A stretch of DNA of 64,000 nucleotides from NCBI GenBank assembly GCA_002711845.1, contig PASF01000009.1, forward strand, positions 186,001-250,000, written 5' to 3'. How positions within the stretch are numbered: the first letter of the stretch is position 1; each line of letters begins with the position of its first letter. A program made the translations under genes and the position numbers. The stretch comes from Gammaproteobacteria bacterium. Its GTDB lineage: Bacteria > Pseudomonadota > Gammaproteobacteria > Pseudomonadales > Pseudohongiellaceae. Under the pieces are notes generated by a model. That model saw nothing but the letters and a program-made list of their open reading frames with translations, ran no database searches and was not told the DNA's origin. Positions 1 to 11,334 of the stretch are shown piece after piece.

Positions 1-1416
1 GCAGGGGCATGGCCAGTGCCGGTCACCCGACAGCGGGTGCAATCTGTCGCCAGCCTGTCTTCGTTGCTGCAGGCAAGCGGTGCGGCAACGGTCGTTACCT
101 CTGACTCGCGGCGCACTCATCTGCCACCGTCACTGCTGCAAACAGGATTGCGTGTGTTGTCTGTGGATACACCGGATGAACACGGCCGCGCCTACCAGCG
201 CCCTGCACTGGCAGCCGAGGACACAGCGTTTATCCAGTATACGTCCGGGTCTACGTCATCGCCCAAAGGCGTGGTGATCAGTCATGGCAATGTCTTGCAC
301 AATGCCAGAGCCATTGCCCGCGCGTTCTCCTGCCGCCGCGATGATATTGGCGTGTCATGGTTGCCGTTTCATCATGACATGGGGCTGATCGGGCACGTCA
401 TCGAACCATTGTATGCAGGCCTGCATAACTACTTCCTGAACCCGGTAGATTTTGTAGCGAGGCCGGTGCGTTGGCTACAGGCGATAGCGAAAGTGGGTGG
501 TACCCTGAGTGGCGGTCCGGATTTCGCATTTGCGCTGGTGACACAAAAAACACCCGACACGCAGCAGCGCGAGCTGTCACTGGACACCTGGCGCCTCGCC
601 TATTGCGGCGCTGAGAAAATCAGGCCGCAGACCCTGTCCAGTTTTGTTGATCGTTTCTCGCCTTGCGGATTTCGCAAGTCATCCGTGTTCCCCTGCTATG
701 GTCTCGCAGAGGCCACGCTGTTTGTCAGCGGCCAGCACGGCGTCGCAACGCATGTGCCAGTCGAACCCGGGAGAGCCATGCCCGCGGTATGTCTTGGCAG
801 GCCTGCAGCGGACACGACAGTACGGATTATCAATCCCGATACCGGTTGCCAGGTTACCGAGGGTGGAAGTGGTGAAGTCTGTATTTCGTCGCCTTCCGTT
901 GCCAGCGGCTATTACCGTAACCTGGTGGCCAGCAACAATGTCTTTGGGCCGCTCGTTGAGGACAGACGGCACTATTGCCGTACCGGCGATCGGGGGTTTC
1001 TCCGCGAGCAGCGTCTGTATCTGCTGGGGCGTTTCAAAAATGTTATCAAACGGTATGGCTGCAGCTTTCATGCCGAAGACCTGGAGGCCACATTGAAGCG
1101 GGGCCTGGGCGCGCAGAACATAAGTCGCTGCGCCGCTTTCACGACGGGTGACCCGAGCGCCGACAAACTGGTCGTGTTGCTTGAGCGCGACCGCGACCAC
1201 AGGAAGGTGATGATCGCCGCGGACGGGCATCTGATTGAAAGGGCCGGGGCACTGGTGAGTGATGAGTTCGGGCTGGTCGTTGATGATGTCCGCATCATGC
1301 CCGCCAACTCCCTGCCGCTGACCAGCAGTGGCAAGATTCGCCGTGATGCATGCCCTGATTTGTATCAGCAACAGATCATTCAAGAGACGAGGATTGGCAA
1401 TGCAAGGCAGTCATGA
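1..1416 (+). CDS. Fatty acyl-AMP ligase (FAAL-like), N-terminus outside the window
   Basis: Adenylate-forming enzyme expected to activate a free fatty acid as acyl-AMP and pass it to a carrier protein. The frame is open from base 1 and the first residues (AGAWPVPV) fit the conserved AGA-VPV stretch about 100 residues into this family, so the GTG at 16 is not the real start. Visible motifs: P-loop YTSGSTSSPKG near visible residue 80, SWLPFHHDMGLIG, CYGLAEATLFVSG, YCRTGD, and a C-terminal SSGKIRR lysine motif. The HHDMGL and YGLAEAT signatures favour FAAL over acyl-CoA ligase. It overlaps the downstream carrier-protein gene by 17 bases, which supports direct transfer to that carrier. The substrate chain cannot be read from sequence. 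Confidence 0.85.
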   Translation, partial: AGAWPVPVTRQRVQSVASLSSLLQASGAATVVTSDSRRTHLPPSLLQTGLRVLSVDTPDEHGRAYQRPALAAEDTAFIQYTSGSTSSPKGVVISHGNVLHNARAIARAFSCRRDDIGVSWLPFHHDMGLIGHVIEPLYAGLHNYFLNPVDFVARPVRWLQAIAKVGGTLSGGPDFAFALVTQKTPDTQQRELSLDTWRLAYCGAEKIRPQTLSSFVDRFSPCGFRKSSVFPCYGLAEATLFVSGQHGVATHVPVEPGRAMPAVCLGRPAADTTVRIINPDTGCQVTEGGSGEVCISSPSVASGYYRNLVASNNVFGPLVEDRRHYCRTGDRGFLREQRLYLLGRFKNVIKRYGCSFHAEDLEATLKRGLGAQNISRCAAFTTGDPSADKLVVLLERDRDHRKVMIAADGHLIERAGALVSDEFGLVVDDVRIMPANSLPLTSSGKIRRDACPDLYQQQIIQETRIGNARQS

Positions 1417-1699
1417 CCAGGTATGGCGACAGGTATCACAGGAAATAGCAAGGGCCCAGGGCTACGCTGCTGCGGAGGCTTTGCAGCCGGAGCACACACC
1501 GTTGTCAGCGCTCGGGCTGGACTCGCTCAAACTGATAGAGATTGTGTACGAGCTGGAGACGTTCTACCAGCTTGACGTCGACGAGGAGCGCCTGGCAGAA
1601 CTCAACAGGGTTGGGGATCTGATAGATCTCATTGTCACTGCCCTGGCTGTAACCGATGATCCGTCACCCGCCGGAGGCACGCATGGCACACATCTTTGA
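1400..1699 (+). CDS. Acyl carrier protein
   Basis: A 99-residue carrier protein whose serine in the LGLDSLK motif should receive 4'-phosphopantetheine. The ATG at 1400 gives a normal carrier-protein length; an upstream in-frame start at 1328 would lie inside the ligase gene and add an unrelated, basic tail. The helix II sequence after the serine (IEIVYELE) and the acidic surface fit interaction with an adenylating enzyme or acyltransferase. It sits between the ligase and the acyltransferase, with overlaps on both sides, so a ligase to carrier to acyltransferase route is the natural reading. It is distinct from housekeeping AcpP in sequence and context. Confidence 0.88.
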   Translation: MQGSHDQVWRQVSQEIARAQGYAAAEALQPEHTPLSALGLDSLKLIEIVYELETFYQLDVDEERLAELNRVGDLIDLIVTALAVTDDPSPAGGTHGTHL

Positions 1700-2915
1700 C
1701 ACATTGGCCACTAACAGTCAGTGCCAGTCCGAGCGCGCGGGTGCCCGCGACAGCATTGATGCTGATTTGCACTCGCTATGCTCAAGATTTCAAAAGGTAA
1801 TTGCCTCGCGTAGTGAGGCGGTTATCAGCGAAGCCTTGAGGGCATTGCCGATACCGGTCAAGGGCCTGGGGATTGTGCGCTCGGAGTTCGGTGTGACGTT
1901 GCGTCTCAGCAGGATTGATGTCAGTCGTGAGCAATGCAAATGGCTCTTCGATTACATCAACATTCTTGAGGACAGCCTGCCAGCCCCGTCGCTGCCAGAA
2001 CGTCTTGAGGTTATTCTCCGGTGCTCTATGCAAGGCTGCATGTCGGCTACCATGCCGCTGCCGGTCAAGCGCAGAAAGCTCAGTATACTGGCGTCGCTGA
2101 TGTTGTGGTTCATGCAGCGGCAGGCACTACCGGCCGCCAGGTTGCGGCAGCAACAAGCGCTATTGTCCTGCCTGCTTCATGAACCGCAGAGCAATATACG
2201 ATCAATATGGCACGAGCATTTGGTGTGGTTTCACTTTAATTACGCCAGGCGTCTGATCCACCTGGAAAACCGACCGCAAAGTGCCAGTTATCTGAAAGCA
2301 TTTTTTTGGCGCGAAAAAACCGGGTATCAGCGAGCGATAGAAAAAAGCAGCGCATCCAGAGTGCTACTCAGCATTCATATGGGGGACTTTTTTGGCGGTT
2401 TCAGGGCATTGGCGATGTTGTCCGAGTCCGGACGTCAGGTTATTTCGCTGCGCAGGGATAAAGCGGGCAATCATGGCATGCAGCATTTCAACGCAGAACG
2501 TATTGCTCACCAGGTTTTTTATCATGGATACCAGAGACCCGCCGCAATCGTTGGCGCCTTGCGACGCGGGCATCACACTCTGGCGACACTGTTTGACCTG
2601 AAAGAAGACTTTGGCAGCACTGTTGTCGTCAATTTTTTTGGTCACCGAGCCCGGTTTGTCAAAGGACCCGCGCAACTTGCCATTCTGGGGAGGTGCCAGA
2701 TTTTCCCCTTTGTCTGCTTCGACCAGCAGGGACGACACTGCATCGAAATGGCGCCGGTGATAGACACCCGACTGCAACAGGACGAATCGCTGCATCAGGG
2801 TACTGTAAGAATTACCCAGGCTTTGGTGTCTTTGGCAGAAAGCTGGATCCGGCGCTGGCCGGCACAGTGGAAATATCTGCCGGTGTTACCCGCTTATTTT
2901 GAGGCAGCGCGCTGA
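1683..2915 (+). CDS. LpxL/HtrB-like acyltransferase
   Basis: A 410-residue protein resembling the lysophospholipid/lipid A acyltransferase superfamily. The central LLSIHMGDFFGG stretch takes the place of the usual His-containing catalytic motif, and a later VVVNFFGHRARFVKGPAQLAI segment looks like the downstream substrate-binding motif of LpxL/HtrB proteins. The HX4D/E spacing is not exact, so catalytic competence is uncertain. The start at 1683 is chosen because GGAGG lies 5 bases upstream; an in-frame ATG at 1656 lacks such a site. The gene begins inside the end of the carrier-protein gene. By context it probably uses acyl carrier protein as donor; the acceptor (lipid, sugar or peptide) is unknown. 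Confidence 0.6.
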   Translation: MAHIFDTLATNSQCQSERAGARDSIDADLHSLCSRFQKVIASRSEAVISEALRALPIPVKGLGIVRSEFGVTLRLSRIDVSREQCKWLFDYINILEDSLPAPSLPERLEVILRCSMQGCMSATMPLPVKRRKLSILASLMLWFMQRQALPAARLRQQQALLSCLLHEPQSNIRSIWHEHLVWFHFNYARRLIHLENRPQSASYLKAFFWREKTGYQRAIEKSSASRVLLSIHMGDFFGGFRALAMLSESGRQVISLRRDKAGNHGMQHFNAERIAHQVFYHGYQRPAAIVGALRRGHHTLATLFDLKEDFGSTVVVNFFGHRARFVKGPAQLAILGRCQIFPFVCFDQQGRHCIEMAPVIDTRLQQDESLHQGTVRITQALVSLAESWIRRWPAQWKYLPVLPAYFEAAR

Positions 2916-2916
2916 T

Positions 2917-4185
2917 ATGTTTAGTGCTTTGTTTCGCCAGGAGGTGCTGTCTGCACGGCATGAGTCGAGATTCGGTCAGGCAGTGTTCTTCCAGCCGCCA
3001 ACCGTCCGGTGGATGGTGTTTTTTCTGATCGTGGTCTTTGTCAGTTTCCTGATCTTTGCAGCCAACGCGGCGCTAAAACAGACAGTCAGGGTGCGCGGTT
3101 ACCTGACCCCCACAGGCGGGGAGGTGAAAGTATATGGTGGCAAATCGGGTGTGGTGACAGAGGTTTTTGTCGATGATGGCGATGTCGTTAAAGCGGGGGA
3201 TATTCTCGTGTCATTGGCAGATCCGCAGTATGACCATGAAGGGCGTGCAAAGGCGGGGCTTGTCTTGCAACAGATTGATGGTCAGCTGCAACAGCTGGCG
3301 CGTCGGCAGGCAGTTGTATCATCGCGCTTTGATGCGCAGGCCGGGCAACTTCGGCAGCAAATACAGGGTATGCAAATTACCCTGCAATTGCTTAAAGACG
3401 AGCAGCAGATCCGCCATCAACGCGTGGCGCTGTCCGGGCATGACCTGGATGCCACCCGCCGGTTGCGTACATCCAGAGCGATTTCCGAGCACGAATATCG
3501 TCAGGTAGCCTCTTCGTTGTTTTTACTGCAGCAGCAGGCCAAAGCCGGAGAACTGGCCATCGCAGCGCATCTGCAGGCCATGGCAGACGCCAGGCAGCAG
3601 CTCAAGGTGCTGCCGTTGCATGCAAAAGAGGAGAAGCTGCAGCTTGATTCGACCCTGTCGCAACTGCGGGCACGCCGGCACGAACTACGAAGTCAGCTCG
3701 GGTTCACGATCACCGCTCCTCGTGACGGTATCGTCAGCAACATGGTCACGCACAGGGGCGATATTATGGATACCCGCCAGCCGCTACTGACTCTCCTTGA
3801 GGCCGACAGCGAACTGGAAGCGTGGCTGTATCTGCCATCGCGAGCCCTTGCAGATATCGAAGCTGGCTCCCAGGTCATGATTTCCTATGATGCCTATCCC
3901 CATCAGACTTACGGTAGTTTCCCGGCACGGGTGTACAGTGTTGCGGATTCTGCAATGGATCCGCGAGAGTTCCTGTTTCCCGTGGACATCAGGGAGCCAG
4001 TGTATCTGGTCAGAGCGCATATTGACGATCAGGGGCTGGGTGAGGGTCTGGGTGAGGGTCTGGGTAAGAGCTCAGCGAACCGTTTCAGGCCCGGCATGCA
4101 GTTTACCGCCGACATCGTAACCGGCGAGCACACGATTCTGGACACGCTCACCTCACCGCTGAGTGGATTGCGGAGAAGGTTGTGA
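2917..4185 (+). CDS. HlyD/CvaA-family membrane fusion protein
   Basis: Periplasmic adaptor of a type I secretion system, 422 residues, with a short cytoplasmic N-terminus, one membrane helix around residues 30-50 (MVFFLIVVFVSFLIFA), a lipoyl/barrel half-motif (VVTEVFVDDGDVVKAGDIL), a long glutamine-rich coiled coil, and the matching second half (FTITAPRDGIVSNMVTHRGD). It should bridge the inner-membrane ABC exporter encoded next to an outer-membrane channel of the TolC type, which is not in the window. The ATG at 2917 is preferred over a TTG at 2899 because it begins just after the upstream stop. A triple 12-base repeat near the end encodes LGEG units. Confidence 0.87.
   Translation: MFSALFRQEVLSARHESRFGQAVFFQPPTVRWMVFFLIVVFVSFLIFAANAALKQTVRVRGYLTPTGGEVKVYGGKSGVVTEVFVDDGDVVKAGDILVSLADPQYDHEGRAKAGLVLQQIDGQLQQLARRQAVVSSRFDAQAGQLRQQIQGMQITLQLLKDEQQIRHQRVALSGHDLDATRRLRTSRAISEHEYRQVASSLFLLQQQAKAGELAIAAHLQAMADARQQLKVLPLHAKEEKLQLDSTLSQLRARRHELRSQLGFTITAPRDGIVSNMVTHRGDIMDTRQPLLTLLEADSELEAWLYLPSRALADIEAGSQVMISYDAYPHQTYGSFPARVYSVADSAMDPREFLFPVDIREPVYLVRAHIDDQGLGEGLGEGLGKSSANRFRPGMQFTADIVTGEHTILDTLTSPLSGLRRRL
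4036..4071 (+). repeat. Three tandem 12-base repeats inside the adaptor gene
   Basis: The unit ctgggtgagggt occurs twice exactly and a third time with changes, in frame, giving LGEGLGEGLGK near the C-terminus of the HlyD-family protein. The unit length is a multiple of three, so gain or loss of copies would keep the frame. Confidence 0.8.
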
Positions 4186-6290
4186 TCAGCGATCTGTTTG
4201 CGAGACATAACAAATTACCTGTCATCCTGCAGGCTGAGCGAACCGAGTGCGGTCTGGCGTGCATCGCCATGGTCGCTTCTTACTTTGGCCACAAAACGGA
4301 TCTGAATTATCTGCGGCGGGATACGCCGGTGTCGGATCGAGGTGCCAGCCTGGCAGATATCATGCAAACGGCGCAGAGCCTGCAGCTTAACCCGCGACCG
4401 GTAAAACTCGAACTGGATGACCTGGGCAAACTGCAACTGCCGGCAGTGCTGCATTGGGATCTGACGCATTTTGTGGTGCTCAAACGTGTCAACCGCTCGG
4501 GCATTGTTATCCATGATCCGGCCGTTGGCATGCGCCGGTATACTCTGGCAGAAACCAGCGGGCATTTTACCGGTGTGGCGCTGGAAATGACACCGGGGCT
4601 TGAGTTCAGCACACAAACGCTGACGCTCAGATCCAGGCTCACGGACCTGTTTCGCAAGGCACCGGGGTTCTATCTGGCGATCGGTCAGTTATTCGCGCTG
4701 TCGCTGTTCCTGCAACTGGCGTCAATCGGCAGTGCGTTTTACATGCAGCTGGTCATTGATGAAGGCCTCGCGAAACAGGATCGCGACATCATCAGCGTCC
4801 TGGCCATCGGGTTTTTTATGGTGGCACTCTGCAGTGTTGCCATGACGTATGCGCGCTCTACGGTGCAGTTGTACTTTTCCAATCAGCTTGGCTTTCAGAT
4901 GGCTGGCAATGTCTTTCAGCACCTGCTCAGTCTGCCGGTGGACTATTTTGGCAAACGGCATGTTGGGGATCTGGTGTCACGCTTTGGGTCGATACGAGAG
5001 ATTCGCCGTATTATTACCGAAGATCTGGTAACCGTCGTACTCGATGGCATTTTTGCGATGATTACCCTGGCAGTGATGTTTTACTTCAGTGTGACACTGG
5101 CGCTGGTTGTGCTCGTTTTTGTTTGCCTGGTGACGATACTTAAAGTGGTTTTGATTCCCAGAATCCAGACCCTGCAGGAGCAGATTATTGTTGCCGAGGC
5201 AAAGACCAGCACCAGCCTGATGGAAAACATGCGTGCCATAGAGGTCATAAAATTCTACTGTCGTGAGCTTCAGCGCCTGACCATGTGGCGCAATGCCTAT
5301 GCAGAGCAGATTAATACCCAGGTATCACTCAGCCGCTTTACCATCAATCTTGACGCCGCCTATTCGCTACTGTTTGCCATGGAGAATATCCTGGTCATTT
5401 ATCTGGCGGCGTTGCTGGTGCTGCGCGGTGACATTTCCCTGGGCTTTCTGACCGCGTTTATCGCCCTCAAAGGCAATTTTTCCGGCTCGATCCGTTCGTT
5501 TGTCGAGAAACTGGTGCAGATACGTCTGGTCAGGCTGCAGTTGGAAAGAGTGTCCGATATCACCTGTGCGGAACGTGAATTTGACACGTTGCAATTGCCG
5601 GTGGTGCGCAAGCCTCTGGGTGGTGATTTATGTCTGAGTCGCGTCAGTTATGCCTATCCAGGAGCCGATCGCGACGTTCTGTGTGACATCAGCGTTGATA
5701 TTCTGCCAGGCGAGCTGGTCGCCATTGCCGGGCCGTCCGGATGCGGCAAATCGACGCTGATGAAGCTGATGGCTGGCCTCTTGCCAGTCACCCGGGGCTG
5801 CGTGAGTGTCGAGGGCACTGATATCCGTCGCCTGGGATTGCGTCTGTTCCGGGACAGCTGTGCCGGTGTTCTGCAGGGAGATCAGTTGCTGTCCGGCACC
5901 ATTATCGACAATATAACCCTGTTTGACAGTGACGTTGATTACGAACGGCTGGACCGGGTTGCGGCGATGGCCGATATCGCTGATCTGGTCCGGCAATTGC
6001 CCATGGGATATAACAGCCTGATTGGCGACATGGGTGCCATTATGTCGGCCGGGCAGGGCCAGCGTATTCTGCTTGCCAGAGCGTTCTACAAGCAGCCGCG
6101 TTTTCTTTTTCTTGACGAGGCCACTGCGAATCTGGATCCTGACTCGGAAGCCAGGATACTCAGCCAGCTTCGACGCCTGGACGCGACGATTGTATTTGTC
6201 ACTCACCGGCAGGCGCCTCTGGAGATTGCCGACCGGGTCATCCGCCTGTCGGATGCCACCAACCCACCTGAGCCCCTGAAAGAGACATGA
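4182..6290 (+). CDS. C39 peptidase-containing ABC exporter (CvaB type)
   Basis: A 702-residue bacteriocin/microcin-type exporter that both cleaves and transports a peptide. The N-terminal C39 peptidase is complete: catalytic Cys23 in ECGLACIAM, His96 in THFVVL, Asp112 in HDPAVG. A six-helix ABC membrane domain follows (about 150-440), then an ATPase domain with Walker A GPSGCGKST, signature MSAGQ (a variant of LSGGQ), Walker B FLFLDEA and H-loop histidine VTHRQ. C39 exporters typically cut after a double-glycine leader. GTG start, overlapping the adaptor stop, with GAGAAGG upstream. No double-glycine peptide gene was found nearby; it may lie upstream of the window. Confidence 0.92.
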   Translation: MISDLFARHNKLPVILQAERTECGLACIAMVASYFGHKTDLNYLRRDTPVSDRGASLADIMQTAQSLQLNPRPVKLELDDLGKLQLPAVLHWDLTHFVVLKRVNRSGIVIHDPAVGMRRYTLAETSGHFTGVALEMTPGLEFSTQTLTLRSRLTDLFRKAPGFYLAIGQLFALSLFLQLASIGSAFYMQLVIDEGLAKQDRDIISVLAIGFFMVALCSVAMTYARSTVQLYFSNQLGFQMAGNVFQHLLSLPVDYFGKRHVGDLVSRFGSIREIRRIITEDLVTVVLDGIFAMITLAVMFYFSVTLALVVLVFVCLVTILKVVLIPRIQTLQEQIIVAEAKTSTSLMENMRAIEVIKFYCRELQRLTMWRNAYAEQINTQVSLSRFTINLDAAYSLLFAMENILVIYLAALLVLRGDISLGFLTAFIALKGNFSGSIRSFVEKLVQIRLVRLQLERVSDITCAEREFDTLQLPVVRKPLGGDLCLSRVSYAYPGADRDVLCDISVDILPGELVAIAGPSGCGKSTLMKLMAGLLPVTRGCVSVEGTDIRRLGLRLFRDSCAGVLQGDQLLSGTIIDNITLFDSDVDYERLDRVAAMADIADLVRQLPMGYNSLIGDMGAIMSAGQGQRILLARAFYKQPRFLFLDEATANLDPDSEARILSQLRRLDATIVFVTHRQAPLEIADRVIRLSDATNPPEPLKET

Positions 6291-6799
6291 CTGACGTGAA
6301 GACAATGAATGAGAAGCTTGTGATCCGGCCTGCGGCCATCAACGATGTACCGGTGATTTTGGCGTTTGTCCGGGAACTGGCCATTTACGAAAAGCTGTTG
6401 CATGAAGTGGTTGCCACAGAAGCGCTGTTTGCTGAGCATCTGTTTGGCGAACGTCCGGTTGCAGAGGTGATCATTGCCGAATGGGAGCACAAGCCTGTCG
6501 GTTTTGCCCTGTTTTTCCATAATTTTTCCACATTTCTGGGTGTGCCTGGCATTTATCTGGAAGACCTGTTTGTCCTGACCGACATGCGCGGCAAAGGTAT
6601 CGGCAAGGCACTGCTGACGCACCTGGCGGCCATCACCCGAGAGCGCAATTGTGGCCGGTTGGAGTGGTCGGTGCTGGACTGGAATGAGCCGGCCATTCAG
6701 TTCTATCGCTCGATCGGTGCAGTACCCATGGACGACTGGACAGTGCAGCGCCTGACCGGCGACGCGCTTGATGCGCTGGCGCAGCAGCAGCCTGCATGA
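6287..6799 (+). CDS. GNAT-family N-acetyltransferase (diamine/thialysine acetyltransferase-like)
   Basis: A 170-residue GNAT enzyme transferring an acyl group from acyl-CoA to an amine. The acetyl-CoA loop is MRGKGIGKALL, and IYLEDLFVLTDMRGKGIG plus LDWNEPAIQFYRSIGA match the spermidine/thialysine acetyltransferase branch. Its ATG overlaps the stop of the ABC exporter (ATGA), so it is translated with the export operon, although this subfamily is also common as a free-standing housekeeping gene. A second possible start is at 6305. Whether it acts on the exported product, on polyamines, or on lysine analogues cannot be decided here. Confidence 0.85.
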   Translation: MTDVKTMNEKLVIRPAAINDVPVILAFVRELAIYEKLLHEVVATEALFAEHLFGERPVAEVIIAEWEHKPVGFALFFHNFSTFLGVPGIYLEDLFVLTDMRGKGIGKALLTHLAAITRERNCGRLEWSVLDWNEPAIQFYRSIGAVPMDDWTVQRLTGDALDALAQQQPA

Positions 6800-7699: not shown

Positions 7700-8338
7700 T
7701 TAATCGACAGGTGTCTTGTGTCGATACTCGCATAAATCGTAGATCACGCAAGCCGCGCAACGCGGCTTGCGTGCAATACAGATATACCTGCCGTGAAGAA
7801 TCAGCCAATGATGCGCATCCAGCAGGTATTCTGCGGGCACCAGCCTCATCAGTCGTTTCTCGACTTCCAGTACATTTTTGCCGGGCGCAATACCGGTGCG
7901 GTTCGATACCCTGAAAATATGTGTATCAACAGCCATGGCCGCCTGCCCGAATGCGGTATTGAGCACCACATTGGCCGTCTTGCGGCCGACGCCAGGCAAG
8001 GCCTCCAGTGCCTCCCGGGTATCCGGCACCACCGACCCATGCCGTTCCACCAGCGCGGCGCAGGTCTTGATCACATTCTCGGCCTTGGTGTTAAACAGGC
8101 CAATGGTTTTGATATACGACTTGAGTCCGTCCACGCCCAGCGCCAAAATCGCGTCCGGCGTGTTGGCAACCGGATAAAGCTTGCGTGTCGCCTTATTGAC
8201 GCCGACGTCAGTGGCCTGTGCAGACAGGATGACCGCGATCAGCAGTTCAAACGTTGAGTGATACTCCAGCTCTGTGGTCGGGTTCGGGTTTTCAGCGTGC
8301 AGACGCTGAAAGATTTGCCGACGTTTGTCCTTGTTCAT
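7700..8338 (-). CDS. nth: Endonuclease III
   Basis: DNA glycosylase/AP lyase that removes oxidised pyrimidines in base-excision repair; 212 residues, the usual length. Helix-hairpin-helix LPGVGRKTANVVL with the catalytic lysine, VDTHIFRVSNR with the catalytic aspartate, and a C-terminal [4Fe-4S] loop with cysteines spaced C-x6-C-x2-C-x5-C (CIARKPRCAACVIYDLC). It is the last gene of the Rnf-like operon, its ATG overlapping the stop of the 58-residue membrane protein. Linkage of nth to rnf/rsx genes is usual in gammaproteobacteria. Confidence 0.97.
   Translation of the reverse strand: MNKDKRRQIFQRLHAENPNPTTELEYHSTFELLIAVILSAQATDVGVNKATRKLYPVANTPDAILALGVDGLKSYIKTIGLFNTKAENVIKTCAALVERHGSVVPDTREALEALPGVGRKTANVVLNTAFGQAAMAVDTHIFRVSNRTGIAPGKNVLEVEKRLMRLVPAEYLLDAHHWLILHGRYICIARKPRCAACVIYDLCEYRHKTPVD
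7745..7773. repeat. Perfect 13-base inverted repeat inside the 3' end of nth
   Basis: cacgcaagccgcg, a 3-base loop caa, then cgcggcttgcgtg. It lies in the codons for the iron-sulfur loop of endonuclease III and about 60 bases beyond the stop of the convergent glutathione transferase gene. There is no U-run on either strand, so it is not a standard intrinsic terminator, but an RNA hairpin of this strength could mark the end of either transcript. Confidence 0.75.
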
Positions 8339-8511
8339 GAAATTTTCCCTGTTACCCGAACGCGTATGTCGGGATCAACATCAATTTGCCTGCCTGTGCC
8401 TGTGCCAGGTGCGGGTCGCCGGCAGGCACGGTAACCTGCGAGCAGCAGGCCGGACAACAAAAACACCAAGGGTGCCCAGCTACTCAGCACATCGATTAGC
8501 CAGGTGCTCAT
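8335..8511 (-). CDS. 58-residue single-span membrane protein in the Rnf-like operon
   Basis: Not recognised. The protein starts MSTWLIDVLSSWAPLVFLLS and has one hydrophobic span (about residues 12-27), a basic patch YRACRRP, and an acidic/polar cytoplasmic tail. Its ATG overlaps the rsxD stop and its TGA overlaps the nth ATG, both as ATGA, so it is translationally coupled on both sides and very likely a real gene. It occupies the place where rsxG and rsxE stand in a canonical operon but shows no sign of the RsxG flavin motif or the RsxE fold. It may be a small accessory subunit of the reduced complex. Confidence 0.75.
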   Translation of the reverse strand: MSTWLIDVLSSWAPLVFLLSGLLLAGYRACRRPAPGTGTGRQIDVDPDIRVRVTGKIS

Positions 8512-9338
8512 TGCCGATCCTCCCGGGGCAACCGCATGCTGCGGTCGTGCCGTATCAGCTGGTCGAGCGCAGGGGTGATGGCATTGCCGCACACAATCGC
8601 AGCGGCAGCCGACGCTGGATAGGACAGCCAGTGTGCCATGACCGCGCTCACCGCAGCGATCAGGCAACCATAGACGAGCCTGCCGGTCCGGGTCCCCGGG
8701 GAGGTGACCGGGTCAGTGGCTATGAACAGCGCCACCAGAACCATGATGCTGGCGTTGAGGGCCAGGTCGAAGCCGGTAAACAATAGCGTTGTTGTCAGCA
8801 GCATGGACAATGGGACGTGCCAGCCAATGATGCGCCTGTGCAGCAATATCAAGCCGCCGGAAAGCGTTGCCAGAATCATCACGCTGGCTACCCAGGGCTG
8901 GGTATCGGCCGTCAGGACACTGGTGGGTGCTGTCAGTGAGCCAGGCACCAGGGTCATGAGTCCCAGGTAGCCGACTGCCACCGGATTGAACAGATTCTGG
9001 CCCAGGCCACCAAAAATGTGTTTGCCGACAATCACGGCGATCGCGACGCCCGCAGCCGACTGCCACCAGGGCAATGCTGTCGGCAACATCAGCAACAGCA
9101 ACATGGCGGTCACCAGCACACTGCCATCCTGGTGTTTTAGCGCCACACCGCGGCCGCGGAGTCGCAGCGCCAGTGCTTCAAGCACCAGCGCCAGCGAGCC
9201 CATCGCCAGCAATCGCAGCGCCCAGTCCGTCCCGGCAAACCAGGTGGTCACCGCAATCGCCGGTAGCAGGGCGAGTAGCACGGTCAGCATAATGCCCGGA
9301 GTGGTCAACGGGGGTCCTGACAGGGCATCGTTGTTCAT
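8508..9338 (-). CDS. rsxD: Shortened RnfD/RsxD-like membrane subunit
   Basis: Homologue of the membrane subunit RnfD, 276 residues where about 350 is usual. Recognisable blocks: LLALLPAIAVTTWF, DGSVLVTAMLLLLMLP, GKHIFGGLGQNLFNPVAVGY, and near the C-terminus ATDPVTSPGTRTGRL. The stretch between the NPxxxGY block and the next helix is missing about 75 residues. That stretch holds the ATPLDT-type loop with the threonine that carries covalent FMN in canonical RnfD; no such motif is visible here. The frame is intact and the gene overlaps both neighbours by ATGA. Multi-pass inner-membrane protein; role in this reduced complex unknown. Confidence 0.82.
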   Translation of the reverse strand: MNNDALSGPPLTTPGIMLTVLLALLPAIAVTTWFAGTDWALRLLAMGSLALVLEALALRLRGRGVALKHQDGSVLVTAMLLLLMLPTALPWWQSAAGVAIAVIVGKHIFGGLGQNLFNPVAVGYLGLMTLVPGSLTAPTSVLTADTQPWVASVMILATLSGGLILLHRRIIGWHVPLSMLLTTTLLFTGFDLALNASIMVLVALFIATDPVTSPGTRTGRLVYGCLIAAVSAVMAHWLSYPASAAAAIVCGNAITPALDQLIRHDRSMRLPREDRQ

Positions 9339-9859
9339 GATTTTTGCGTTCCCGACTTGTCGTTCTGCAGGGCAGCTTTGCGGGCCCGGGTTCGCTCAAC
9401 CGCGGCGGCAATTTCCGCCTGGATCTGGGCCGGACTCTTGGCGGCAATTGGGGTTTCTGTGTTCGCGCTGACTGGTCGGGAGACGGGTTTGCCCTCGGCC
9501 AGCGCTTGGGTCTTGGCTTGCAGCTTTCTCAGTTTGCGTTCCTGCTGTGCCAGTGCATCGTGAGTTTGGCGCGCCTGATGGCGCTCAAACCGCTGTTGCC
9601 AGTGCGCCGCTTCAGCGTCGGCCTGTTGTTGCGCCTGCAGTGCCAGTTTCTCGTCGTGAAAGATGGCGACCAGCGGTAATCTGCTGGGACAGGCCGCTTC
9701 ACAGGCGCCGCACTCCGTGCACTGTGCCAGGTCAAAGCGCCGTGCCTGGTCATGTTGCTGAAAACGGCTGAATGCGTAGAGCTGCTGCGGCTGCAGTGCT
9801 TCAGGGCATACCGGTACACAGAAATCACAGCGGATGCAGGGCTGACCGTTGTCGCTCAC
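9335..9859 (-). CDS. rsxC: RnfC/RsxC-like protein reduced to its ferredoxin part
   Basis: A 174-residue protein matching only the C-terminal part of RnfC: two [4Fe-4S] motifs, [11 protein letters not shown] and [11 protein letters not shown], with PQQLYAF and SRLPLVAIF typical of RnfC, then an alanine/glutamine-rich helical tail. The N-terminal 300 or so residues of RnfC (NADH- and FMN-binding and SLBB domains) are absent. They are not lost through a nearby frameshift, since the start overlaps the rsxB stop directly and leaves no room. The protein should still pass electrons through two clusters but cannot take them from NADH itself. Confidence 0.82.
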
Positions 9860-10428
9860 GATGACCTCCCTGTCGGCGTCCCGGTGCCAGCAGTGCCTGC
9901 CGCAGGCCGGACCGGCAACATGTCAATGCAGTCGACAGGGCAGGGTGATACGCACAGGTCGCAGCCCGTGCAATCGCGTGCGATGACCGTGTGCATACGT
10001 TTGGGCGCACCGGCGATGGCATCGACCGGGCAGGCCTGAATGCATTTGGTACAGCCAATACATTCGGCTTCACGTATGAATGCCACCTTGCGCACGGATT
10101 CAACGCCGTGCCGCGGATCCAGCGGCAGCTCGGGGCGGTCCAGCAGCCCGGCGAGGCGGGTAATGGTAGCAGCCCCCCCGGGTGGGCAGCGGTTGATGGC
10201 GACCCCCGACTGAATCGCTTCGGCGTAGGGGCGGCAGCCGGGATAACCACACTGACCGCACTGGGTTTGTGGCAACATGGCATTGATGCGGTCGACCAGC
10301 AGGTGCTCGCGGTGGCGGTCAGCAGCCGCGCGGCGTGGTGATGACCTCAGCTGCCTGCGCACGACAAGACAGATCGTTGCCAGCACCGATACATACCCCC
10401 ACACCAGCAATGCGGCTGCCCAGGTCAT
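9856..10428 (-). CDS. rsxB: Electron transport complex subunit RnfB/RsxB
   Basis: A 190-residue iron-sulfur subunit close to normal length. An N-terminal membrane anchor ([19 protein letters not shown]) is followed by the RnfB-specific cluster motif [10 protein letters not shown] ending in NRCPPGG, then two ferredoxin motifs [12 protein letters not shown] and [12 protein letters not shown]. So it can hold three [4Fe-4S] clusters and is the best preserved member of the operon. The ATG at 10428, overlapping the rsxA stop, is chosen because the longer reading frame upstream runs through rsxA. The tail is glycine/threonine-rich. Confidence 0.92.
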
Positions 10429-11015
10429 GACAGGCCTCCGGTCGGGCTCAACAATGCCAGTGCCAGAATACCGGCGGTCGCCAGCTCCAGAGGCAGATCG
10501 CGCCAGGCGTCGGGACACTCGCTGACACGCAGGCGCAGGCGCAGGTCGGCAAAAATCACAATCGTAACCAGCAGTGCGCATCCGGCACAGATTGCCCAGA
10601 ACACGGCCCACAAGAGCATCGTCCAGGGCTGCAGACCGGCATGTGCCAGACACAGCAAGCTGGTAAGAATGGCCACATCAGTGCCGGCCATGGCCAGCAG
10701 ACAGCGGCGGTGGGCGCGGGGCAGCGTGATGCCTTGCTCAAGCCAGGCTGACAACGGCAACAGCAGCAGGCCGGCGGTCACGGTGCTAAGCAACCCGGCC
10801 AGCCACATAGCCGGTACGCGGCCCGAGACCTGCTCGGTGACAATCAGCATGGTGATTGTCAGCAGGGAATTGACTGTCAGCAGCAGCGCGGTGCCGACGG
10901 CAAACAGCATGCCGGTACCCGGGCGGGCCGAGCTGGCACCGGGCCCGGTAAGGCGGCCGAGGATGAGGCAATTGAGCAGGGCTACGATCACCAGTACTAC
11001 ATAAAATGCTTTCAC
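10425..11015 (-). CDS. rsxA: Divergent RnfA/RsxA-like membrane subunit lacking the cluster cysteines
   Basis: A 196-residue, six-helix membrane protein. The end ([18 protein letters not shown] then [13 protein letters not shown]) aligns well with the end of RnfA (FAAIRERL...ITAGLMSLAF), and length and operon position fit. The two cysteines of canonical RnfA, in GLCPF and TTNCAVLG, are replaced: the matching positions read TGPGA and GTDVAIL. Those cysteines, with the pair in RnfE, hold the membrane [2Fe-2S] cluster, and no rnfE is present, so that cluster is probably gone. First gene of the operon; a rubredoxin gene diverges from it. Confidence 0.72.
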
Positions 11016-11166: not shown

Positions 11167-11334
11167 ATGAAGAAGTGGCAGTGTATTGTGTGTGGCTTGA
11201 TTTACGACGAGGCCGAGGGCTGGCCGGATGACGGCATTGCGCCCGGCACGGTCTGGGCGGATGTGCCTGATGACTGGATGTGTCCCGAATGCGGTGTAGG
11301 AAAAGAAGACTTCGAGATGGTTGAACTGGCGTGA
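11167..11334 (+). CDS. Rubredoxin
   Basis: A 55-residue one-iron electron carrier. Two cysteine pairs bind iron: CIVCG (Cys6, Cys9) and CPECG (Cys39, Cys42); [16 protein letters not shown] and the aromatic residues around the iron fit the family. Single-domain type, such as those that serve rubredoxin reductases, alkane hydroxylases or haem-assembly oxidases. No reductase gene is nearby. It diverges from the Rnf-like operon across about 150 bases and is followed 39 bases later by metG. Confidence 0.95.

Follow-up and report, generated by a model that had tools for sequence, protein, structure and literature searches.

The locus and its six genes

The window analysed here is a stretch of 64,000 nucleotides (contig PASF01000009.1, positions 186,001–250,000, assembly GCA_002711845.1) from a member of the genus Pseudohongiella, family Pseudohongiellaceae, whose genome is labelled G000 below. 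Its minus strand carries, from position 11015 to 7700, a reduced relative of the Rnf/Rsx operon (rnfABCDGE), with the genes in the order A', rsxB, C', D', a gene for a protein of 58 amino acids (aa), and nth. All six frames are open and intact, as the initial annotation had proposed. Neighbouring frames overlap throughout the operon; the annotation gave each junction as ATGA, which is correct for four of them, while the junction between B and C' is GTGA.

The first gene, A' (10425–11015, minus strand, GTG start), encodes a 196-aa membrane protein derived from RnfA/RsxA. It has no match in Pfam, and its match to TIGR01943 (E 1.3e-6, 29 bits) lies far below the cut-off and covers only the C-terminal half; against the RnfA chain 9eri_A in the PDB, the E value is 3.1e-5. 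The second gene (9856–10428, minus strand) encodes RsxB/RnfB, a protein of 190 aa with an N-terminal hydrophobic anchor (maximum Kyte–Doolittle hydropathy, KD, of 2.34 ahead of the first cluster motif). All three of its expected [4Fe-4S] motifs are present, in agreement with the annotation, and it scores 222 bits against TIGR01944 (cut-off 68.7). C' (9335–9859, minus strand), which also starts with GTG, encodes 174 aa comprising only the C-terminal dicluster ferredoxin of RnfC, with two [4Fe-4S] motifs, and a basic tail. The match of C' to TIGR01945 is confined to positions 361–434 of 435, that is, to the end of the RnfC model, and the match to the PDB chain of RnfC (8ahx_C) to residues 368–487; the NADH/flavin mononucleotide (FMN) domain is missing in profile searches, so the earlier statement that C keeps its ferredoxin part only is borne out.

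D' (8508–9338, minus strand) encodes a 276-aa membrane protein derived from RnfD, which exceeds the cut-off of PF03116 (188 bits) and stays below that of TIGR01946 (166 bits; cut-off 207). The 58-aa gene, here called e' (8335–8511, minus strand), precedes nth (7700–8338, minus strand), a conserved neighbour that encodes endonuclease III and scores above the cut-off of TIGR01083 (280 bits). Structures predicted for A' and D' from alignments of three sequences were of poor quality, with mean predicted local distance difference test (pLDDT) scores of 49.7 and 45.5.

Cofactor sites kept and lost

In the published structure of the Rnf complex of Acetobacterium woodii (PMC11889175), the [2Fe-2S] ligands are C25 and C113 of RnfA and C25 and C108 of RnfE; in RnfD, FMN is carried on T156 and riboflavin is contacted by N123 and D249. 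At the two columns that hold the cluster cysteines in Escherichia coli, A' has Gly and Val, and thus lacks the [2Fe-2S] cysteines, as the initial annotation claimed. Three other genomes share the reduced gene set (see below) and have Gly/Val (G053), Ala/Val (G022) and Ala/Cys (G041) at these columns. The FMN-Thr motif of RnfD aligns to a gap in all four reduced genomes, including the window, and the reported absence of the flavin-attachment region from D is therefore upheld.

The same annotation held that every flavin site was gone. This stands for the FMN-Thr loop and the FMN part of RnfC, and fails for D', in which Asn118 and Asp209 fall at the positions of N123 and D249, the riboflavin contacts of A. 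woodii RnfD. Among the reduced genomes, the Asn is kept in all four and the Asp in three (Glu in G022). Of 36 RnfD sequences, 35 have the Asn and 34 have the Asp; G022 has Glu in place of the Asp, and G034 has His and Glu at the two positions.

RnfG was not found, as the annotation had noted; the absence of RnfE, claimed alongside it, needs revision, since the 58-aa protein is probably a remnant of RnfE, consisting of the last helix and an RVRVTGKIS tail. Compared with a model of RnfE C-termini, the frame of this protein (8335–8667) gives an E value of 0.0013. The frames of the 58-aa proteins from the window, G053, G022 and G041, together with an open reading frame (ORF) of G093, are the top five of 623 ORFs searched with this model (E 5.2e-8 to 0.018). 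When the RVTG tail is left out, the values weaken to 0.0048 (G093), 0.064 (G022), 0.18 (G041), 1.3 (window) and 2.3 (G053), and the assignment thus leans on the tail and on the position of the gene. A C-terminal motif resembling K/R-R-V-R-V-T-G is common to many RnfE proteins of the family and to the 58-aa proteins, and is missing from E. coli RsxE.

The coordinated loss described in the annotation is real. The membrane [2Fe-2S] site has gone, with Gly/Val in A' and no RnfE body, and the [4Fe-4S] carriers have stayed, with five motifs remaining, three in RnfB and two in C'.

Other Rnf and NQR genes in the genome

No other Rnf was found in the genome, only a Na+-translocating NADH:quinone oxidoreductase (Na+-NQR). 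A search with the RnfC_N, Rnf-Nqr and FMN_bind families returned one locus, on contig C6, and apart from it nothing but two frames, of 679 and 708 aa, that match FMN_bind. The locus on C6 can be identified as nqr from a 405-aa gene that exceeds the curated cut-off for NqrB; a 452-aa frame in it is the sole RnfC_N match outside the operon. The rnfC model has no second match in G000 at 1e-10, and the rnfG model has no match there at 1e-14. The body of RnfE is not in the operon, and all Rnf-Nqr matches of the genome lie within the nqr locus. Full-length rnfC, rnfG or rnfE elsewhere in the genome, which the annotation had named as something to look for, was consequently not found.

Distribution and selection in Pseudohongiella

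The same gene set, in the same order, is present in 4 of 15 genomes of the genus (G000, G053, G022 and G041). Six of the others have an operon with A, B, C, D and E; in the remaining five, RnfB is present and the stretch read shows no A, C, D or E. None of the 15 has rnfG above its cut-off. A match to D' at an E value of 1e-35 or better occurs in these same four genomes of the genus, which are also the only four among 137 genomes of the family. At this threshold, a draw of 293 genomes from the order yielded three matches, the third of which (G093) belongs to another family. At its Rnf locus, G093 has a full RnfC, an A with the second cysteine only, a 304-aa RnfD in which no FMN-Thr motif is visible by eye, a 92-aa ORF with the RnfE tail, and an RnfB whose N-terminus lies close to the first cluster motif. 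A scan with two short peptide patterns from A', which distant cases may escape, gave 65 pattern matches and two relatives (L083 and L084, the latter Pseudohongiella sp.); G022 was not returned.

In a tree of Nth and RnfB, the four genomes with the reduced operon group together as a single clade (100/99). Selection was estimated as Nei–Gojobori ratios of nonsynonymous to synonymous divergence (dN/dS) for the six pairs among these genomes. The ratios are 0.02–0.05 for nth, 0.08–0.16 for RnfB, 0.19–0.36 for D' and 0.30–0.43 for A' (six pairs each), 0.07–0.15 for C' (three pairs with estimable dS) and 0.08–0.69 for the 58-aa gene (five estimable pairs), all of them rough values, as dS exceeds 1 in most pairs and is inestimable in three C' pairs. 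Judged from these comparisons, the reduced operon is under purifying selection, strong on B and C' and weaker on A' and D'. The search for decayed pseudogenes among the relatives turned up no broken frames and no dN/dS near 1, the highest value being the 0.69 of the 58-aa gene in one pair.

A diverged RnfG-like gene (59–67.5 bits, cut-off 102) is found outside the rnf operon in all six genomes of the genus with the ABCDE form and in none of the other nine. It lies at 4592–5245 in L133 and at 6775–7416 in L134, and in G003 it adjoins transhydrogenase, ApbE and nqr genes. The gene is also present in four g4 genomes; none was found at 1e-14 in G034, G050 and G006. The presence of this gene in six of six cases led us to reject the idea that the ABCDE genomes of the genus have lost RnfG.

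Rnf across the family

In the Pseudohongiellaceae, Rnf has been dismantled to differing degrees. Of the 59 genomes sampled, 58 have an RnfB match at an E value of 1e-10 or lower; G007 is the exception, and G055 has an RnfB fragment only. The stretches around RnfB were read in the other 57, including the window, and in three further genomes of the genus, giving 60 classed genomes; the A and E states of relatives come from these stretches, and RnfA and RnfE were searched genome-wide in G000 alone. Over the 59 genomes, RnfC is above its cut-off in 18 and RnfG in 20.

Full-length RnfC is accompanied by G in the operon in six of the 60 (in G044, E is seen only inside the G frame). G048 and G056, for which no genes but A, B and C appear in the stretch, also belong to this class; within these eight, all four [2Fe-2S] cysteines are present only in G025 and G036. 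At three g8 loci (L090, L095 and L096), a full RnfC and an operonic RnfG are present, yet some of the four cysteines are replaced. In 13 genomes (L039, L094, L106, L115 and other g2, g3 and g8 loci), RnfB is fused to the RnfC ferredoxin and the NADH/FMN head of RnfC is absent. A, D, E and G were seen in 12 of these 13, the G020 stretch showing A and B only, and among the 12 with A and E only G052 has lost a cysteine, the other 11 keeping all four. The form with A, B, C, D and E and no G in the operon accounts for 12 genomes, none of which has any of the four cysteines. G006, with B, C, D and an nth fragment, forms a class of its own; it was formerly counted with the ABCDE form, under which the tree still labels it, and was removed on a recount that left no room for RnfE between D and the nth fragment. 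G012 shows the fused form with D and E and stops at the contig end. The reduced state of the window is found in 4 of the 60, B and C' with a further membrane gene in three (G004, G017 and G023), and RnfB alone in 18.

A probable second reduction

A second genus of the family probably underwent a similar reduction independently. In G004, G017 and G023, the gene order is an RnfA-like gene, RnfB, C', a membrane protein of 329–403 aa and nth, and the membrane protein ends in RARVTG plus a few more residues. When the ORFs were searched with models of D and A, G017 gave E values of 1.5e-5 and 0.0016, and G023 gave 6.6e-4 and 0.0082; G004 reached 0.01 with neither model, its D-like protein being matched by BLAST at 37 bits. 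The frames of this putative parallel set are intact, and for the G017/G023 pair dN/dS is 0.33 for A, 0.17 for B, 0.23 for C', 0.36 for the D-like gene and 0.04 for nth. The three genomes form a separate clade (100/100) in the Nth and RnfB tree, placed elsewhere from the reduced four, although RnfB is itself part of this tree and may track the trait, and the deep forks are open, so that the number of origins is not firm.

The RnfB anchor and the RnfC tail

Among the classes in which RnfB has membrane partners, its first cluster motif follows a hydrophobic segment (maximum KD of at least 1.89), the exceptions being G004 (1.15) and G048 (1.22); G006 and G012 end at contig edges in this comparison. 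In the 18 genomes with RnfB alone, the maximum KD never reaches 1.5, or the N-terminal stretch is too short for an anchor. The lone RnfB carries a fused RnfC tail in 16 of these 18 (E <1e-4 in a small database), the tail not being seen in G058 and G046, and all 16 fused tails have a net positive charge.

For A. woodii, the published account reports that the C-terminal helix of RnfC binds RnfB and suggests that the basic C-terminus of RnfB is a hook for ferredoxin (PMC11889175). By analogy, the RnfC tail may take the part of ferredoxin hook in this family. Since the lone-RnfB relatives have lost the scaffold and usually keep the tail on RnfB, we suggest that RnfB and the RnfC tail form the indispensable unit.

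Interpretation of the reduced operon

On balance, we lean towards the reading that the operon is a reduced, nth-linked descendant of rnfABCDGE that would work as a membrane-tethered [4Fe-4S] relay, with neither NADH oxidation nor pumping of the Rnf type. The main task of A', D' and the RnfE remnant would be to give B and C' a scaffold in the membrane. Electrons would come from a soluble carrier of low potential (ferredoxin or flavodoxin), perhaps docked by the basic RnfC tail, and B and C' may hand them on to a soluble acceptor, for which SoxR is unlikely. A repurposed membrane-tethered iron-sulfur relay is what the initial annotation proposed. The persistence of the operon in four species and the probable parallel in another genus favour this proposal; the riboflavin residues of D' and the likely RnfE remnant do not fit it as first drawn.

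Several points weigh against a working relay. In A. woodii, direct electron transfer between B and C is not expected, the distance exceeding 30 Å (PMC11889175), and a circuit between B and C' would therefore need a changed geometry. The riboflavin residues persist in D', and the relay may thus not be free of flavin. Sequence change is faster in A' and D' than in B and C', A and D are missing from this locus in five genomes of the genus, and the dN/dS values are rough, as stated above. The parallel set depends on weak A-like and D-like matches, with gene order, length and tail carrying part of the case. G004 (by its KD) and G093 (by eye) have membrane partners and an RnfB without an anchor.

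A wider claim, which we put forward only tentatively, is that such operons make up a distinct functional class of Rnf derivatives, without a pump and without the NADH, FMN and [2Fe-2S] stations, to which parallel stepwise reduction has led more than once and in which RnfB and the RnfC tail would be the core that outlasts the rest.

Alternatively, D' might bind riboflavin, and electrons would then pass between the clusters of C', riboflavin and the quinone pool in a manner resembling NqrB. The retention of N118 in four and D209 in three of the reduced genomes speaks for such a role, as do the RnfC cofactors of A. woodii, which line up toward RnfD (PMC11889175), and the transfer of electrons from riboflavin to ubiquinone by NqrB, given in a review. 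As that review describes it, however, RnfD passes electrons to RnfC and not to quinone, and the Asn and Asp motifs are not visible by eye in the D-like protein of the putative parallel lineage. We regard a route to quinone as unlikely, if worth keeping in view.

Rather less likely still is decay in progress, in which the operon would be a transient stage toward lone RnfB, and A' and D' would persist only by translational coupling to nth. The genus does hold ABCDE, reduced and lone-RnfB forms, constraint is weaker on A' and D' than on B and C', and all junctions overlap. Against this, four species that have diverged widely at silent sites all keep intact frames for A', B, C', D' and nth, and dN/dS in these genes stays under 0.5 wherever it could be estimated; the four genomes form one clade, which implies that the state has persisted, and the putative parallel set is intact too.

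It is improbable that RnfB and the RnfC tail serve the iron-sulfur cluster of the adjacent endonuclease III. Nth does carry an iron-sulfur motif (PF10576), and nth lies in the stretch around rnfB in 56 of the 60 classed genomes, including the window. The gene order is probably ancestral, however, E. coli also having rsxABCDGE-nth, and G027 has no nth in its 11-kb stretch; three other stretches end too early to tell.

A reduced form of the SoxR-reducing system (Rsx) is the least credible reading: the operon is homologous to Rsx, the system to which a review ascribes the reduction of SoxR in E. coli, yet stations of the Rnf electron path are missing, and no SoxR match exceeds the curated cut-off in any of the four reduced genomes. 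The best match in G000 reaches 53.4 bits, against a cut-off of 116.9. SoxR, suggested as a redox partner in the initial annotation, was rejected on this count for the four reduced genomes. Within the genus, 5 of 15 genomes have SoxR above the cut-off, and G003 has a partial match of 112 bits, just below it.

Relation to known systems

The operon shares with Rnf/Rsx homologous A, B, C and D in the same order, the nth neighbour, and the five [4Fe-4S] motifs of B and C'. It differs in having no RnfG, no NADH/FMN domain of RnfC, no FMN-Thr loop of RnfD and no cluster cysteines in RnfA, and in an RnfE that is probably a tail. A' and D' match the NqrE and NqrB models of Na+-NQR weakly; nqr is a separate locus in this genome, and the six operon proteins have no match to NqrA or NqrF (among the best 25 NCBIfam matches in the case of RnfB and C').

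The iron-sulfur domain of RnfB is shared with two families of lone RsxB/RnfB, NF005415 and NF006446, which we take to stand for lone RnfB genes beside nth in Burkholderia and Xanthomonas. NF005415 also matches residues 46–170 of C', that is, the second ferredoxin motif and the tail. The operon differs from both families in the anchor of B, the separate C' and the retention of A' and D', and P0002 falls below the cut-offs of both models. As these families have annotation models of their own, the lone-RnfB end of the reduction series is probably not new. No description of the reduced operon was recognised in the literature, which was covered largely at the level of titles and abstracts.

Rnf is usually treated as a six-subunit pump, and the family offers natural intermediates that separate its iron-sulfur, NADH, flavin and membrane modules. 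They suggest that RnfB and the RnfC tail have a role of their own, independent of NADH, RnfG, the pump and SoxR, and these genomes make the role of RnfB, including that of the lone genes, testable.

Neighbouring genes

A divergent rubredoxin gene (11167–11334, plus strand; 86 bits against NF045768, cut-off 90) lies beside the operon as a neighbour not shown to belong to it. A rubredoxin gene stands beside the locus in all 14 other genomes of the genus, whatever their Rnf state, and rubredoxin as a specific partner of the reduced operon is thus unsupported.

Further along the window, positions 16–6290 (plus strand) hold a run of genes resembling a fatty-acyl-AMP ligase, an HlyD-type adaptor and a peptidase-type ABC exporter, all below their cut-offs. 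An acyl carrier protein and an acyltransferase are presumably also present. The nearest relatives of the exporter are NHLP bacteriocin exporters, again below the cut-off, and the run possibly serves the export of an acylated peptide.

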